A model generated the notes under the pieces. The model was not told the origin of the DNA. It saw nothing but the letters and a program-made list of their open reading frames with translations, and ran no database searches. Below, piece by piece: positions 609-7,622 of a DNA stretch of 25,880 nucleotides. The first letter of the stretch is position 1. Every line of letters starts with the position of its first letter. A program made the position numbers and the translations under genes. The DNA comes from a virus. The DNA lies in IMG/VR virus record IMGVR_UViG_3300027907_000607, positions 1 to 25,880 of that record; one strand, written 5' to 3'.

Positions 609-2264
609 CTATACCTGCCATGCCCACCCGCACCCGTCTTCTGCAAGCAATTCACGAATCTGAGCAGGGGTCATGTCCCAATCCCAGGCGGTAGCCTGAA
701 GCTGTTCCCGCTCATATTGCTCAGCCTGCCACTTCACCAATTCCCACTGCTCTTTAAGCGTTGGCTCAGGAATGAAGCCATCATCTAGTGGTGGCTCGTG
801 GTCTACGTTGATAAACGCGTGCTCCTCCGCGAAGCGTGAAGGGTGTGAAGGGTCTTTCCTCTTACTCCCTCTAGAAGAAGATATAGAAGAAGAGTTAGGG
901 ATTCTCCCTTCACCCTTCACAGACCGCCACGCCACCCCCGCATACCGATTGCCTTTTCGTGTGTGGAATCGCTCATACGCCATCTGCACGGCTATGCCGA
1001 ACTGCTTCAACGGGAGCAGTTCGACCCCTTGTGATTCGGACCATACTGTAAACGCCGTATACATTTCCGATGCGCTCAGAGTCGAGTCGGCCTTCGCTAT
1101 CGTCTGGTCCCGCAGAAATCGCTTCACCGCATCCCGTTCACTCCGTAGCTGCTGTGATGCCTGAATCGTTTCCTTCGGTGGCGTCAGGCCGTGCTGCTGC
1201 CACAGTAACGCGCCCTCTACGAGCCACCGAAGAATCCCTGACGCTTCCCGATGGAGCGCGTCTTTCCGCGTCATATCCACTTGTTGCCCCTCAAATATCC
1301 TTGGAAAGATAATCGTTCGGCAGCGTCGAGCGATACCCCGCGATGTGTCTTCAAACGTCGGCGGATGATTCGTCATCAACCAGAACTTCGACTGTGGTGT
1401 AAAGGTGAAAAACTCGCCGTAGAGAAATCGAGCCGTCACTTCATCCCGACCCGTCAGACGTTTGAGCAACCCCTCATCCATCCGAATGCTCTGGTTCGAC
1501 TCAGGCACCGTAACGAAGCGCTTGCCCACAATCTTGGCAAGGTCGTTCCGTGCGGTGCCGCTGTCATGGCGCTCTAACGATTTGAACAACAGCGTATCGG
1601 TATAGTCTCCGAGAATGCGCCCCACGGTATTGAGCACCGTGCCCACGCCTGCTCCCCCGCCACCTCTACACAGAAAGAAGCATTCTTCCTGCGTGCTCCC
1701 GGTTAGCGAATACCCAAGCGCCCGTTGCATGTAGTTCACTTGCGCTTTGTCGTTATCGAACACCTCCATCAGTGTGCTCTCCCACACCGGACATTCCGCC
1801 TGTCGGTCGAACACAACGGGGGATGTTTGCGTGATGCGGTCTGCTGGCCGTCCATCACGCAGCGTGCCTGTGCGAAGGTCGATAACCCCGTTCTGCACGC
1901 CGAGCAAATACGGGTCGTGATTCCAGTTGTCCCCGGCTGCTGACGCAATCCCTGGCTGCGTCTGGGCAATCGACAAGAGACTTTCCAACCTACGTCGAGA
2001 CTCTCCTTTCAGCGCCCAATCCATACTCGCCTTGCGTTCGCCCGAATCCTCGAGTTTCAGGGCGTCTGCCTGTCGTGCTCGCATTGTCTCGATAGCCAGA
2101 GACATCACGCTCGCGGCTGGTTCCCAATGATGGGAGCGAAAGACCAGCCACTGCTTACGGCTACGGTCGAATCGAACTTGAGTGCCGAACCGATGAGCGA
2201 AGTATTCCGCGTCTCCTACTTCCGTGAGCGGAAAGTCTGGGAGTGGGTCTTTGCGTTTGCTCAT
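609..2264 (-). CDS. D5/P4-family phage SF3 helicase with degenerate Walker A
   Basis: This 551-residue replication protein belongs to the D5_N/SF3 helicase (phage/plasmid primase P4 C-terminal) family, which unwinds the phage origin as a ring. The D5_N signature appears at about residues 117-135 (DPYLLGVQNGVIDLRTG). The ATPase core follows: P-loop region 201-209, Walker B-like VTVPESN at 251-257, an R-F-L-Y-containing segment at 279-282, the sensor-like FWLMTNHPP at 294-302 and arginines at 313-314. No TOPRIM or AEP primase domain is present, so priming must come from elsewhere. The P-loop reads GGGGAGVGT where relatives usually have NGKG/ST, so the nucleotide-binding lysine is replaced by valine (codon GTG). 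The start at 2264 has a GGGAGG ribosome site and overlaps the previous stop by 4 bases (ATGA). Residues around 450-475 are Ser/Arg/Lys-rich low complexity and are encoded by the inverted-repeat element at 836-920. Confidence 0.9.
   Translation of the reverse strand: MSKRKDPLPDFPLTEVGDAEYFAHRFGTQVRFDRSRKQWLVFRSHHWEPAASVMSLAIETMRARQADALKLEDSGERKASMDWALKGESRRRLESLLSIAQTQPGIASAAGDNWNHDPYLLGVQNGVIDLRTGTLRDGRPADRITQTSPVVFDRQAECPVWESTLMEVFDNDKAQVNYMQRALGYSLTGSTQEECFFLCRGGGGAGVGTVLNTVGRILGDYTDTLLFKSLERHDSGTARNDLAKIVGKRFVTVPESNQSIRMDEGLLKRLTGRDEVTARFLYGEFFTFTPQSKFWLMTNHPPTFEDTSRGIARRCRTIIFPRIFEGQQVDMTRKDALHREASGILRWLVEGALLWQQHGLTPPKETIQASQQLRSERDAVKRFLRDQTIAKADSTLSASEMYTAFTVWSESQGVELLPLKQFGIAVQMAYERFHTRKGNRYAGVAWRSVKGEGRIPNSSSISSSRGSKRKDPSHPSRFAEEHAFINVDHEPPLDDGFIPEPTLKEQWELVKWQAEQYEREQLQATAWDWDMTPAQIRELLAEDGCGWAWQV
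836..920. repeat. Inverted-repeat element, copy 1, inside helicase gene
   Basis: Two tandem GTGAAGGGT units (836-853) face an inverted CCCTTCACCCTTCAC (906-920). Between them lies a pyrimidine/purine-asymmetric core containing CTCTAGAAGAAGATATAG and ending GAAGAAGAGTTAGGGATTC. The element is in the coding sequence of the helicase C-terminal part and encodes a low-complexity Ser/Arg stretch there. A second element of the same layout is at 7181-7264. In this copy every arm unit has A at the fifth base of GTGAMGGG. Confidence 0.8.
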
Positions 2265-2542
2265 CGCCCCTCCCGTAGATTCTCAATCGCCGCGTCCACA
2301 TGCTCGAACATATACCCCGTATGAAAGTCCTTCCCATATAGCCGCTCGCAGATTTGCAAATGCAGTCGGTCAATCACTCGCCGTGCGGAAGAATGTTCCT
2401 TCCGCGCCTCTGGATAGTCGTATCGTTCTGCCGCCTCCTCCAACCATGTAAGCAGTGTGGTGAGCGGAATCGTTTTTGCGGTCGTCACGTCGCTGAGTGC
2501 GCGTGCGTTGGTCTGAGCTTGTGACTTGCGGTTGCGATTCAT
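2261..2542 (-). CDS. Small hypothetical protein coupled to the helicase
   Basis: This 93-residue protein is not recognised. It is charged and mostly helical by composition, with an ARKEHSSARRVIDRLH segment near the middle and an acidic-aromatic C-terminus. The start at 2542 is preferred because TTGGAG lies 8 bases upstream; extending to 2590 adds a Cys-rich tail with no ribosome site. Its TGA overlaps the helicase ATG by four bases (ATGA), which indicates translational coupling, so a helper role in replication is plausible. This is inferred from position only. Confidence 0.7.
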   Translation of the reverse strand: MNRNRKSQAQTNARALSDVTTAKTIPLTTLLTWLEEAAERYDYPEARKEHSSARRVIDRLHLQICERLYGKDFHTGYMFEHVDAAIENLREGR

Positions 2543-2676
2543 CGAGTTATCTCCAAGTGCGCAACATTGCGCTTTGCGGGCATAGCTCACGCTTACCCGA
2601 TGGTTCTTGCTGCTTTTCAGTTCTTCCGTTGGTGTCTGGTTTCTACGAGGGTCTTACTGTGCCGTTGATGCTGTCG

Positions 2677-3396
2677 TTACACGAACGCCCATTCGGACGG
2701 TGGCGTGTTACTGCCCCGTCCCTCATTCCCGACTGAGGCGTAAGATGCTGCCGCTTCCGCAGCAGATTCGTAGGGACCAAAGCGCCGATAGCCGCCACCG
2801 ATACGACTGACAGCCACATACCGCTTACCTACTCGGCGCACGCCGGTTGGTAGCCCTGTATATTTGCGCTTGACGATTTCCTCCGGCTTCCGTGGACAGA
2901 TGGTATCGAACACCGCGTTGTCGTAGCTGAACGGGGCTGATTCGTCCAAGCGTCCCAACTCGTATTCCGGTTTGGCGATGGTGCCCCGGTCGAATCGCCC
3001 GAAGTCACTCCAGAGCCACGCATACTGCTGTAGGTCCAACTCCCAGGCCACGCCCTGCTGCTTAGCTCGGCGTTTGTCCCGTTCAAAGCAGCGGATGACA
3101 CCGAGCGTCACTCCCTCTCGCCTCAATGCCGCATCACCATCGCGGATGCCACCATGCGTTGCGGTGTCAACGCCGAAGCGCTTCACGCACCTCCGTTCCT
3201 GAGCCTGTTGCGCTCGCACCTGTCTGCGAATCGTCCGAATCCGTCTGCTGTTGATGCCCGCTGTGTCGAGCACCTGTCTGACACGCTCACAAGAAATTCC
3301 GTGTTCTGCTCCGAGCTGTCGAAGTGTGATGTTGCCCTTGAGATACCTCTCTACAATCTGACCGTCACGCAAAGCATTCGCCGAGCCACTATTCAC
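2677..3396 (-). CDS. HTH and AP2-domain DNA-binding protein (homing-endonuclease-like)
   Basis: This 239-residue protein has three visible parts. Residues 10-47 are a helix-turn-helix of the sigma-region-4/resolvase type (TLRQLGAEHGISCERVRQVL). Residues about 90-175 form a middle part with W/G/R spacing (LWSDFGRFDRG, then PFSYDNAVFDTICPRKPEE) that resembles the region in phage HNH-type proteins with a GPYSxxNV-like motif, but no complete HNH triad is obvious. Residues 180-221 match an AP2 DNA-binding fold (GLPTGVRRVGKRYVA, FGPYESAAEAAASYA), a domain often fused to phage homing endonucleases. The start is GTG at 3396, with AAGGA 9 bases upstream. It is divergent from the sigma factor across a palindrome-bearing control region, so a repressor or regulator role is equally possible. 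Confidence 0.75.
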   Translation of the reverse strand: MNSGSANALRDGQIVERYLKGNITLRQLGAEHGISCERVRQVLDTAGINSRRIRTIRRQVRAQQAQERRCVKRFGVDTATHGGIRDGDAALRREGVTLGVIRCFERDKRRAKQQGVAWELDLQQYAWLWSDFGRFDRGTIAKPEYELGRLDESAPFSYDNAVFDTICPRKPEEIVKRKYTGLPTGVRRVGKRYVAVSRIGGGYRRFGPYESAAEAAASYASVGNEGRGSNTPPSEWAFV

Positions 3397-3461
3397 TGAA
3401 GCTGTCCTTTCCGAAGTTACCGAGTTGTTGAGATTGACCGTGGGATGGCTAGAGACGCGAA

Positions 3462-3484
3462 TGGCCCCAAGACGAGCGGGGCCA
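3462..3484. other. Hairpin with TGGCCCC/GGGGCCA arms
   Basis: Perfect 7-bp arms enclose a 9-base loop. There is no T-run on either side. It would lie in the leader of a rightward transcript or upstream of the leftward gene. Confidence 0.45.
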
Positions 3485-3588
3485 CACTTATATTGGCTGC
3501 ATTATCGATACCAGTCGGAGGTGAAGTCCTCGGCGTGTCAAGTCATGAAAATAAATCCTCCGTGGTTTGCAATCATTCGTAAAACTCC

Positions 3589-3608
3589 CGATCAGATTCA
3601 TCTGATCG
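3589..3608. promoter_or_regulatory. 20-bp palindrome, candidate operator
   Basis: CGATCAGATTCATCTGATCG has perfect 9-bp arms around a central TC. It ends two bases before the TTGACA box at 3611-3616, a typical operator position. The core fits GATCA-N8-TGATC, which also occurs at 7632-7649. Confidence 0.5.
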
Positions 3609-3610
3609 CG

Positions 3611-3639
3611 TTGACAAGTCGCCTTGCCATCTGCATTGC
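3611..3639 (+). promoter_or_regulatory. Possible sigma-70 promoter for the sigma gene
   Basis: A perfect TTGACA box at 3611-3616 is followed after 17 bases by CATTGC, a poor -10 box. The -35 match and the adjacent palindrome support it; the weak -10 keeps confidence low. Confidence 0.25.
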
Positions 3640-3754
3640 TGTCCTAATCCGATGGCATTCTAGTTAAGTCGAAGTGACCTTGAAAGTAGACGAACCTCGA
3701 CCGCCAAGCGTCACCCGCGCTCGTTGCTACCTCCGCACCTGTTGATCGGGAAAT

Positions 3755-3774
3755 GTGGAGAAGAACTACTCCAC
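3755..3774. other. GTGGAG/CTCCAC hairpin
   Basis: Perfect 6-bp arms enclose an 8-base loop, with outer ATGTG and CACAT segments that could extend the pairing. It lies about 190 bases upstream of the sigma start and may affect leader folding. Confidence 0.35.
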
Positions 3775-3824
3775 CTAATTCACATGTTACTACAGGTCGG
3801 TTGAGCGTTGTCTACTCAGAATTG

Positions 3825-3848
3825 TTGATCGCTTGATCGCTTCGTCGC
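3825..3848. repeat. Three tandem 8-bp units
   Basis: TTGATCGC, TTGATCGC and TTCGTCGC follow each other without gaps about 115 bases upstream of the sigma start. They could be binding sites, though so short an array may also be chance. Confidence 0.4.
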
Positions 3849-3961
3849 ACTATCTAATCTTTTATCCAATCTTTCCCTCCACAATTCATCCCCTTCCGCA
3901 CCGCTCGTGGAGCAACGGCAGCGATATCACCTCGCGCTGTTGTTGCTTCACCAGAATCCTT

Positions 3962-4906
3962 ATGGACATCAAGCTCATCACTCGCGCCCAGGCCGGAAAT
4001 CGCAAGGCTCGAACGGCGGTGATTGAAAGTCTCGTGGCTGTTGCGAAGTGCGAATCATCAAAGTGGCGGAAGCTCGAACGCTCAGAAGCCAATGCTGTCG
4101 CACTACTCGCTCTCATTCAAGGCGTGGACGCTGCCCTTCTGACATTCGACGCGACGAGACAGGCCGGTATCACTGCTTACGTCCGTAAAAGCATCCGCCG
4201 TGCTCTCGGCGCAGCTCATGACAAGCGTCTCATCGTCTCAGCCCCACTGGACATCCAGCAACAGCTTCGTCGGGCTCGTGCTGGACATCGGATTCCACCC
4301 CGCACTATGAAGACACTTGGCACTCTGCCACAAGGACAACGCAGCTTGGACGAACCTATTTCGGATTGTGATGGAGACGGAGAGGCACGAACGTTCAAGG
4401 ACTTACTTGCGGACCAGATTGAGACGCCGGAGCAGATCGTCAGTCGCAAAGAAGGTCGAGCGTTGCTACGAACCCTACTCCTCCGCGACTTGAGCCCGCG
4501 TGATGCCCTCGTCATCACTCTCTGTTACGGACTCGACAACGGCGAGCCCCTGGAGCAAGGCGACGTGGCCGCTCAGACCGGGCTATCGATTGCGACCATC
4601 AAATCCATCCGGCAGTCTGCTCTGAAGCAGTGGCGGCAGATTCCTGATCTCCACAACATCCTTCGCGCCCTAGTGAGTGACCGGCCCATACGCGCTCGTG
4701 TGGCCGCGAAGCCGCTGGCTGATGGTGCCGCTGGACGGATGCCGAAGTCATTGGAGCATCAGCGGAAGTTGTCTGATGAGCAGATCCAAACGATTCGCGC
4801 TCGTCGTGCTTCAGGAGAAGCGAACCGAGCGTTAGCCAAGGCGTTCAACGTCTCCCCTGCCACTATCACCCGAGTCACCAAGGCACGATTCAAACCCGCT
4901 GCCTAA
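3962..4906 (+). CDS. Phage sigma-70-like factor with extra C-terminal HTH
   Basis: This 314-residue protein resembles the sigma-70 family, which directs RNA polymerase to promoters. Residues about 50-95 match region 2 (LIQGVDAALLTFDATRQAGI, then AYVRKSIRRAL). Residues 128-165 match the LDEPIS..DG..F.DLLAD..ETPEQ linker before region 4. Residues 177-226 match region 4, with LSPRDALVITLCYGLDNGEP and a helix-turn-helix DVAAQTGLSIATIKSIR. Residues 268-306 form a second, resolvase/Hin-type HTH (KLSDEQIQTIRARRASGEAN, ALAKAFNVSPATITRV) that ordinary sigma factors lack. The ATG at 3962 is preferred because upstream residues look random, although no clear ribosome site precedes it. It probably redirects host polymerase to phage promoters. 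Directly downstream is a fragment of a second copy. Confidence 0.8.
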   Translation: MDIKLITRAQAGNRKARTAVIESLVAVAKCESSKWRKLERSEANAVALLALIQGVDAALLTFDATRQAGITAYVRKSIRRALGAAHDKRLIVSAPLDIQQQLRRARAGHRIPPRTMKTLGTLPQGQRSLDEPISDCDGDGEARTFKDLLADQIETPEQIVSRKEGRALLRTLLLRDLSPRDALVITLCYGLDNGEPLEQGDVAAQTGLSIATIKSIRQSALKQWRQIPDLHNILRALVSDRPIRARVAAKPLADGAAGRMPKSLEHQRKLSDEQIQTIRARRASGEANRALAKAFNVSPATITRVTKARFKPAA

Positions 4907-6587: not shown

Positions 6588-7275
6588 TCAGAATCGCACG
6601 ATTTGCTCAGCAATGTGTGCGGCATTTGGTTTACATAGGTGCGCTTATAGGACGCAAATCCTTAGCGAATCGGCGGATCTGTTGAATGAATCGGTGGAAA
6701 GCGAAAGTGATCGCTCAGTGACTTACGAGGATCGTTGCGCCGCTAAGTGAGTTGTGCCCAAAGCGAAAGTCAAAGGGCAGACTTCCAGCGCTCAGCAGAC
6801 GAAGCTCAGGTAAGCATTGACGAGGTAGACCACAGCCGTTAGGACGCCAACCTGGAGGGCTCTCTGAGTGACACGCTTTCCAGTCATCATTTCCACGTTA
6901 GGCCGTCGCATCTAGTTTGTCAAAGGGATCGATTCACCACTCCCTACGCTGCCCGATAGAGCCGCAGCCACACAGCGAACATTCGACCACACCGCCCTCT
7001 GTGCGCCAGTCCTCGGCTCCGACTTCTCTCTTGACCCACTGGTCGGTGTGAAGTGGCCTACTGTCGTCTACACCGCTACCCACTTTTCAGCATTGGAGTG
7101 ACGGGTTAGAGAGTGAGATAAGGGCTGCAATTTCACGATAAGTCGCAAAAACGCCCGTAAACACCGCCGATATCCGTAGTAGTGACGGGTTGAGCTATTT
7201 CCCTATTTCTTTCTAGAGAGAGATATATAGAGAAAGAGTGGGGATCAACCCGTCACCCGTCACTCAGTATCCAGA
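6588..7275. other. 688-base region without a convincing gene
   Basis: No frame has protein-like composition and no tRNA cloverleaf was found. It contains an AGCGA/TCGCT hairpin (6700-6715), a leftward perfect TTGACA box (6918-6923) with a poor -10, a lone AGTGACGGGTT unit (7097-7107) and the inverted-repeat element at 7181-7264. It may be a decayed gene region or a regulatory/replication segment. Confidence 0.5.
7181..7264. repeat. Inverted-repeat element, copy 2
   Basis: AGTGACGGGTTGA (7181-7193) faces TCAACCCGTCAC (7245-7256), extended by a second CCGTCAC ending at 7263, so perfect 12-bp arms enclose about 51 bases. The core reads CTTTCTAGAGAGAGATATAT then AGAGAAAGAGTGGGGATC. It aligns through its whole length with copy 1 at 836-920. 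Here every arm unit has C where copy 1 has A. It starts 12 bases beyond the stop of the next leftward gene, so it may also act as that gene's 3' structure. Confidence 0.8.
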
Positions 7276-7476
7276 CTAAGCGTTCTCCCGCTTTTGGTGT
7301 TGAACCAGTGGCTCCTCAAGCTCCACCCGCAAGAATTCCTGTGCGTCTGAGAGTGAGACGGGACGGCCCAGCATGACGCTGAAATGATAGCGACACTCCT
7401 CGATGGTGCGCCATTCGTCGATTCTCTGCACCACTAGGACATCACGAAGGCGTTCACGTTCAATAGCTGAGAGCAT
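7276..7476 (-). CDS. Small hypothetical protein
   Basis: This 66-residue protein is charged and helical, with an IDEWRTIEECRYHFSVMLGR segment that could be a small helix-turn-helix-like or partner-binding fold. No family is recognised. The start at 7476 is chosen for its AGAGGA ribosome site 5 bases upstream; a GTG at 7521 with a weaker site would add 15 residues. It lies just upstream of the copy-2 inverted-repeat element. Confidence 0.6.
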   Translation of the reverse strand: MLSAIERERLRDVLVVQRIDEWRTIEECRYHFSVMLGRPVSLSDAQEFLRVELEEPLVQHQKRENA

Positions 7477-7622
7477 CACGTTCCTCTCAATAAATGCCGA
7501 GATGGCGGTCGGACCATTCACCCTCAGCCTCTGTATCCCATAGAGACGCAGCTCGTTAATGGGTATTGGCTCTACCGCTATCGGAAGACCACGAAGCGCA
7601 TGCTGTCGTAAGAACGCTCGGC

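Follow-up and report, generated by a model that had tools for sequence, protein, structure and literature searches.

The 25,880-nt window analysed here (virus record IMGVR_UViG_3300027907_000607) carries two related inverted-repeat elements, and we assign a probability of about 0.85 to the reading that both are iteron-type replication-origin sites of the phage, bound by the winged helix of the phage's own helicase. In plain terms, the repeat is very probably the place where the phage's own motor protein, which opens DNA, lands and begins to copy the genome. We directly observed the anatomy of the elements, a position and layout conserved in relatives, a coincidence with annotated origins and a correlation between repeat units and winged helices. 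The same layout of about 100 letters, in a different spelling, directly follows this motor gene in most of the distant relatives, phages and plasmids, that we examined, so start points of this kind can often be read from the sequence itself.

Anatomy of the two elements

Element 1 (836–920, minus strand) is a dyad of 2+2 GTGAAGGG iterons around a 53-bp core and spans codons 449–477 of the helicase gene. Exact copies of the unit lie on the plus strand at 836–843 and 845–852 and on the minus strand at 906–913 and 913–920, where the plus strand reads CCCTTCAC. The two sets of short repeats thus flank an AT-richer core (853–905, no strand; 62% AT versus 46% in the surrounding 440-bp region), the putative melting site. 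We found exactly four copies of GTGAAGGG in the whole window, all within 836–920, and no other 8-mer of the window has four copies spread over both strands inside 120 bp; 30 mononucleotide-shuffled windows yielded no such 8-mer. The first-pass annotation had described an inverted-repeat element here, and its position and sequence were confirmed.

Strict collinearity of the arms is lacking in element 1. The spacing between unit starts is 9 nt in one arm and 7 nt in the other, so the stem has a bulge, and because of this bulge the strict palindrome score (11.0) falls under the null threshold (95%, 12.5). In single-strand folding the element surpasses shuffles by a moderate margin only (z about −2.6 to −2.9). 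The case for element 1 as a candidate origin rests on its repeated units and its position, not on its palindrome score. We also considered an intrinsic terminator, which would be a short G+C-rich hairpin behind a gene with a T run next to it, and rejected it; element 1 is a long interrupted dyad within a gene and has no T run after it.

Element 2 (7181–7264, minus strand) is an intergenic second dyad 6.3 kb from element 1, with GTGACGGG units at 7182 (+), 7249 (−) and 7256 (−) and an alignable core. Only one left-arm unit lies inside it, and a further exact GTGACGGG match lies outside at 7098–7105 (+); the arrangement proposed earlier, a tandem pair facing a tandem pair, therefore holds for element 1 but not for element 2. 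The two elements align along their full length, as had been claimed, with a score of 33 versus −3.5 ± 4.6 for 2000 dinucleotide shuffles (maximum 14.5), and their cores alone are also similar (p = 0.0005). The spelling of the units differs by the same single base at the two sites, A in element 1 and C in element 2, and this difference, too, holds in every unit. Single-strand folding of element 2 (z −5 to −6 versus shuffles) is better than that of element 1. A GC-skew switch, suggested as a check on an origin, is not visible at either element. By analogy with P4, which has crr beside its initiator gene and ori elsewhere, element 2 would be a second binding or start site.

An 81-aa ORF (7276–7521, minus strand) ends 12 bp before element 2 and gave no family matches. 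Its orientation to element 2 is that of the helicase to element 1, and it is possibly a remnant or partner of a second replicon.

The helicase and its winged helix

The gene at 609–2264 (minus strand) encodes a 551-aa D5/P4-family (SF3, AAA+) initiator helicase without a primase domain, identified by profile matches (PF08706, E 9e-27; phrog_6088, E 8.5e-100) and by an AlphaFold (AF2) model built on 55 sequences with a mean pLDDT of 87.9. Foldseek matched the model to ASFV PrimPol, monkeypox virus (MPXV) E5 and the SaPI5 primase-helicase (7ola), and 7ola was also the first match in a PDB sequence search (E 1.8e-5). A protein-pattern search using the window helicase alone returned no matches, and aligned relatives were needed. 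The Walker A motif reads GGGGAGVGT (1638–1664, minus strand; codons 201–209), with valine in place of the catalytic lysine of G.G.NGK[ST], and the invariant residues elsewhere in the alignment are retained. Helicase activity is uncertain because this lysine is missing; natural loss, a partner subunit or a sequence error may account for it. Scanned ORFs of the early region (609–4906) gave no match to a separate primase family. Since the helicase has no N-terminal primase domain either, priming must be supplied from elsewhere or by a protein that escaped recognition. Within the same region, an ORF at 3833–4906 (plus strand) has a sigma-70 region 4-like stretch and a resolvase-type helix-turn-helix (PF04545, PF13936), and its product is perhaps a phage transcription factor.

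The AF2 model places a C-terminal winged helix, the proposed iteron reader, at codons 392–447 (924–1091, minus strand) and a helical C-terminal tail at codons 503–542 (639–758, minus strand), the two joined by a linker that is disordered from about residue 457 to 497. Within the initiator gene, element 1 directly follows the DNA-binding domain: the winged-helix codons end 3 bp before it, it starts just after codon 447, and it encodes residues 449–477 within the low-confidence linker. A D5/P4-family helicase with a C-terminal winged helix is thus encoded beside element 1, and the model suggests that the element begins right behind the DNA-binding domain, where the protein has residues that it can do without.

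We compared the repeat units with the proteins across 56 loci. Unit similarity correlates with similarity of the winged-helix recognition region (helix and wing; rho 0.108, permutation p 0.026), a weak effect obtained with approximate 8-mer registers, and the correlation persists when the helicase core is partialled out (p 0.008). Similarity of the helicase core itself is not correlated with unit similarity (rho −0.015, p 0.61). The four winged helices nearest to that of the window all come from loci with TGACGG units, a class that makes up 10 of 55 (p 6e-4, post hoc). The effect is small, but it points to the winged helix as the candidate reader of the units.

We propose the following mechanism. 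The C-terminal winged helix of the helicase would bind the GTGA[A/C]GGG units of about 8 bp, and the oppositely oriented unit sets would place two helicase assemblies, probably as a double hexamer, face to face across the core. The core would melt between them, and each hexamer would take one strand, so that forks would start, presumably in both directions. Element 1 occupies the standard place of this replicon family, here with the reading frame running through it as a disordered linker.

The site after the helicase domain in relatives

A search of related phages for a like element near helicase genes had been suggested, and we carried it out in two ways. For the survey, 160 D5-type helicase loci from viral and genome contigs were reduced to 78 (below 60% identity, with enough flank). 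To keep the test unbiased, we divided each locus into segments of 440 bp and set the one that directly follows the conserved helicase domain against the rest. An 8-mer repeated at least four times over the two strands occurs in 32% of the post-domain segments of the 78 loci, versus 1.9% of 579 control 3′ ends of other long ORFs. The post-domain segment strictly beats all other segments in 41% of the 78 loci (4% expected), and its inverted-repeat score exceeds the 99th percentile of the null in 59% (p 3e-27). The dyad spans cluster at about 100–120 bp. The units are lineage-specific (GGGTTACT, TGTGAACC, GTGAACGA, GTGTATAG, TGACGGGT and GCGGACGC, among others), and a TGAC/GTCA core is present in 21 of 53 repeated words at the post-domain site versus 5 of 173 elsewhere (p 4.5e-11).

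The elements of relatives lie at a median of 62 bp past the end of the conserved domain. Among 54 such elements, 34 lie past the stop codon, 7 span it and 13 fall wholly within the gene; in view of these counts, the in-gene location in the window is a normal minority state. Second sites occur in 3 of the 54 loci (3.4 expected), which is background, and the expectation that relatives would have them was unmet. The less common traits of the window are its in-gene position and its second, one-base-shifted site.

The other search used only the motif and was blind to genes. It returned nine stretches, six of which (L003, L004, L006, L007, L008 and L009; L003 and L007 are one phage sequence) lie beside the 3′ end of a D5-type helicase, and a seventh (L002) repeats the element sequence of L003. 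The earlier guess of an origin is supported by position, architecture and annotated anchors, and it withstood the refuting outcome named with it, that helicase genes of relatives would have no such element nearby. Among culturable relatives, phage phi105 of Bacillus subtilis shares the layout, with its dyad after gene 40.

The layout is not universal. Four of five sampled actinophage D5-type loci gave no dyad match at the expected place, namely Streptomyces phage Euratis, Arthrobacter phage Ascela, Microbacterium phage Eden and Curtobacterium phage Moss (L180, L181, L183 and L184), and these contradict the proposition that all D5-type phages have the dyad. Their origins may lie elsewhere or be built differently. 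In three of the four, DNA polymerase I lies directly or almost directly downstream. A different pattern was seen in a viral contig (L005, 195–1328), where non-coding tandem arrays of the 7-mer GTGAAGG are unlike the dyads and a D5 helicase was not found. Two further loci (L026 and L022) have several dyads in series together with GTGGCGCA/AAGGTGGC units after the helicase, which suggests, by analogy, duplicated origin units as in P4 crr.

The cores of relatives share a central motif, about TCYCTAYRYGRG (EM log-likelihood 97.8 versus 44 ± 2.5 for shuffles). When learnt from viral loci, it is found again in genome loci that were held out (p 1.5e-9); training on genome loci gave a different motif that generalised poorly to viral loci (p 0.026). 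Both cores of the window match the central motif only weakly (p about 0.3). In the closest helicase relative (L017), TCCTATATGAG can be seen by eye between TGACGGGTTT and AACCCATCA, and the dyad is below threshold.

Could the symmetry itself, and not the iterons, be what matters? In an origin with an essential cruciform or stem-loop, pairing of the arms would expose the core, as proposed for the Sulfolobus plasmid pRN1. That origin needs an intact stem-loop of about 100 nt located 3′ of its initiator gene, and after one of the stem mutations it replicated again only when symmetry was restored (PMC4234260). With the units excluded, cores are self-complementary in 14 of 59 elements of relatives (about 3 expected), and in L006, L008 and L107 the arms are near-perfect complements, spacers included. 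Against this, the self-complementarity of the window cores does not go beyond chance (p 0.99 and 0.17), the arms of element 1 are not collinear, unit numbers per strand are often unequal (5+1 or 6+3, for example), and binding by SCCmec Cch2 survived deletion of the inverted repeats and was abolished by deletion of the direct repeats (PMC7581432). The first-pass annotation had taken the A-to-C change as covariation of the arms that keeps pairing. The unit-wise change stands, but the pairing interpretation is weakened by the chance-level cores; from one copy to the other all units change in the same way, whether direct or inverted, which needs no pairing and fits repeated protein sites better than hairpin covariation. 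The hairpin as main driver was demoted after the core test, and we regard an essential cruciform as unlikely in the window. Given the self-complementary cores of relatives and the stem required by pRN1, a cruciform may contribute in some lineages.

The remaining alternatives fare worse. Iteron origins often serve as autoregulatory sites too, and element 2 is intergenic, so the elements might be operators through which the helicase or another phage protein controls transcription or copy number while replication starts elsewhere; yet the site is at the 3′ end of a gene and not at a promoter, in relatives as well, and it coincides with the annotated origins of phages A2 and Sfi21, which makes a purely regulatory role quite improbable. 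The presence of two copies that align, one lying within a gene, could recall a mobile palindrome, either MITE-like, as had also been raised earlier, or of the kind that inserts in frame into genes. We found no support for this, since no scattered near-identical copies were found, pattern matches mostly have non-alignable cores and lie mostly at D5-helicase ends, and relatives share place, size and layout with unrelated units, which insertion cannot explain; we hold it to be very improbable. Least credible of all, at close to zero, is a repeat that exists only because the linker peptide repeats. Element 1 is translated, but its repeats are inverted and fall in a low-confidence disordered linker, and the non-coding copies, with 34 of 54 relatives' elements downstream of the stop codon, refute this account. 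Iteron-type origin sites remain the preferred reading of both elements.

Comparison with known replicons

Origins of this kind are already known from PICI, P4, A2, Sfi21 and pRN1; what is new is the breadth of the iteron-dyad layout across D5-helicase replicons. An AT-rich region with iteron sets on both sides, placed 3′ of the initiator gene, was described as shared by PICIs and found in "no other known bacterial replicon" (PMC6092414), a PICI-specific view that the breadth of our survey contradicts and corrects. We found no general survey of D5-helicase origins in the open-access literature, to which our search was confined. We consider it rather probable that D5-helicase replicons across phages, plasmids and phyla share one ancestral design, a dyad of about 100 bp with lineage-specific iterons at a fixed place after the winged helix and a conserved centre (about TCYCTAYRYGRG), in which the units co-evolve with the winged helix while layout and centre stay. 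If so, the window adds to this design an in-gene site and a second site with a single-base switch in all units. The origins of most uncultivated phages are unknown, and a fixed address with a recognisable layout would let one predict from sequence alone where replication begins in many phages, satellites and small plasmids. Paired unit and winged-helix data from dozens of lineages would also open the specificity code of these initiators to testing.

The annotated origins of Lactobacillus phage A2 and Streptococcus phage Sfi21 both lie at the 3′ end of the primase/helicase gene, with inverted iterons around an AT-rich core as in the window. In A2, the rep_origin (32208–32717) overlaps the 3′ end of the primase gene and has inverted ACGGGAGGAT units around an AT core. 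In Sfi21, the "origin of replication" (34487–34784) overlaps the 3′ end of the primase/helicase gene and has inverted GTAACTAA units; the record describes it as "origin of replication, 302 bp non-coding region, phage inhibitory sequence". Both origins, as annotated in the records, were reportedly mapped experimentally. They differ from the window in their units and in lying largely downstream of the gene, and we know of no second origin site in either phage.

The origins of PICIs and SaPIs (Rep or Pri-Rep with ori) likewise hold an AT-rich region between two iteron sets, immediately 3′ of a D5-type initiator gene (PMC6092414, PMC7581432). SCCmec Cch2 uses its C-terminal domain to bind iterons that directly follow its gene, and SaPI Rep does likewise (PMC7581432); such reading of iterons by the C-terminal domain of the initiator (PMC6092414, PMC7581432) is what we propose for the window. 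The window differs in being a tailed phage with capsid and terminase genes, and in having a site in the gene and not 3′ of it, a second distant site and another unit. In pRN1, a dyad of about 100 bp also lies just 3′ of a gene for a primase–SF3 helicase–winged-helix initiator, but it is described as a stem-loop without iterons; a dyad 3′ of the initiator gene has been reported for phage BIP-1 too (PMC4234260).

P4 is the one precedent we found for the two-site layout. Its crr, with inverted type-1 repeats, adjoins the 3′ end of alpha, so that inverted iteron sets directly follow the initiator gene (gp alpha), and a second iteron site (ori) lies 4.7 kb away. P4 crr is reportedly needed in cis. 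The P4 units (GGTGAACAG) resemble those of the window and are close to GGTGAAGGG, which is itself found within crr, as is GGGTGAAGGG. P4 differs in that the primase of alpha is of the Toprim type, crr consists of a 120-bp unit in duplicate and the unit sets flanking the core point the opposite way, whereas the two sites of the window differ by one base in every unit. Two origin-like sites with the same base switched in every unit would serve as a natural experiment on the strictness of the initiator and on whether both sites are needed, as in P4.
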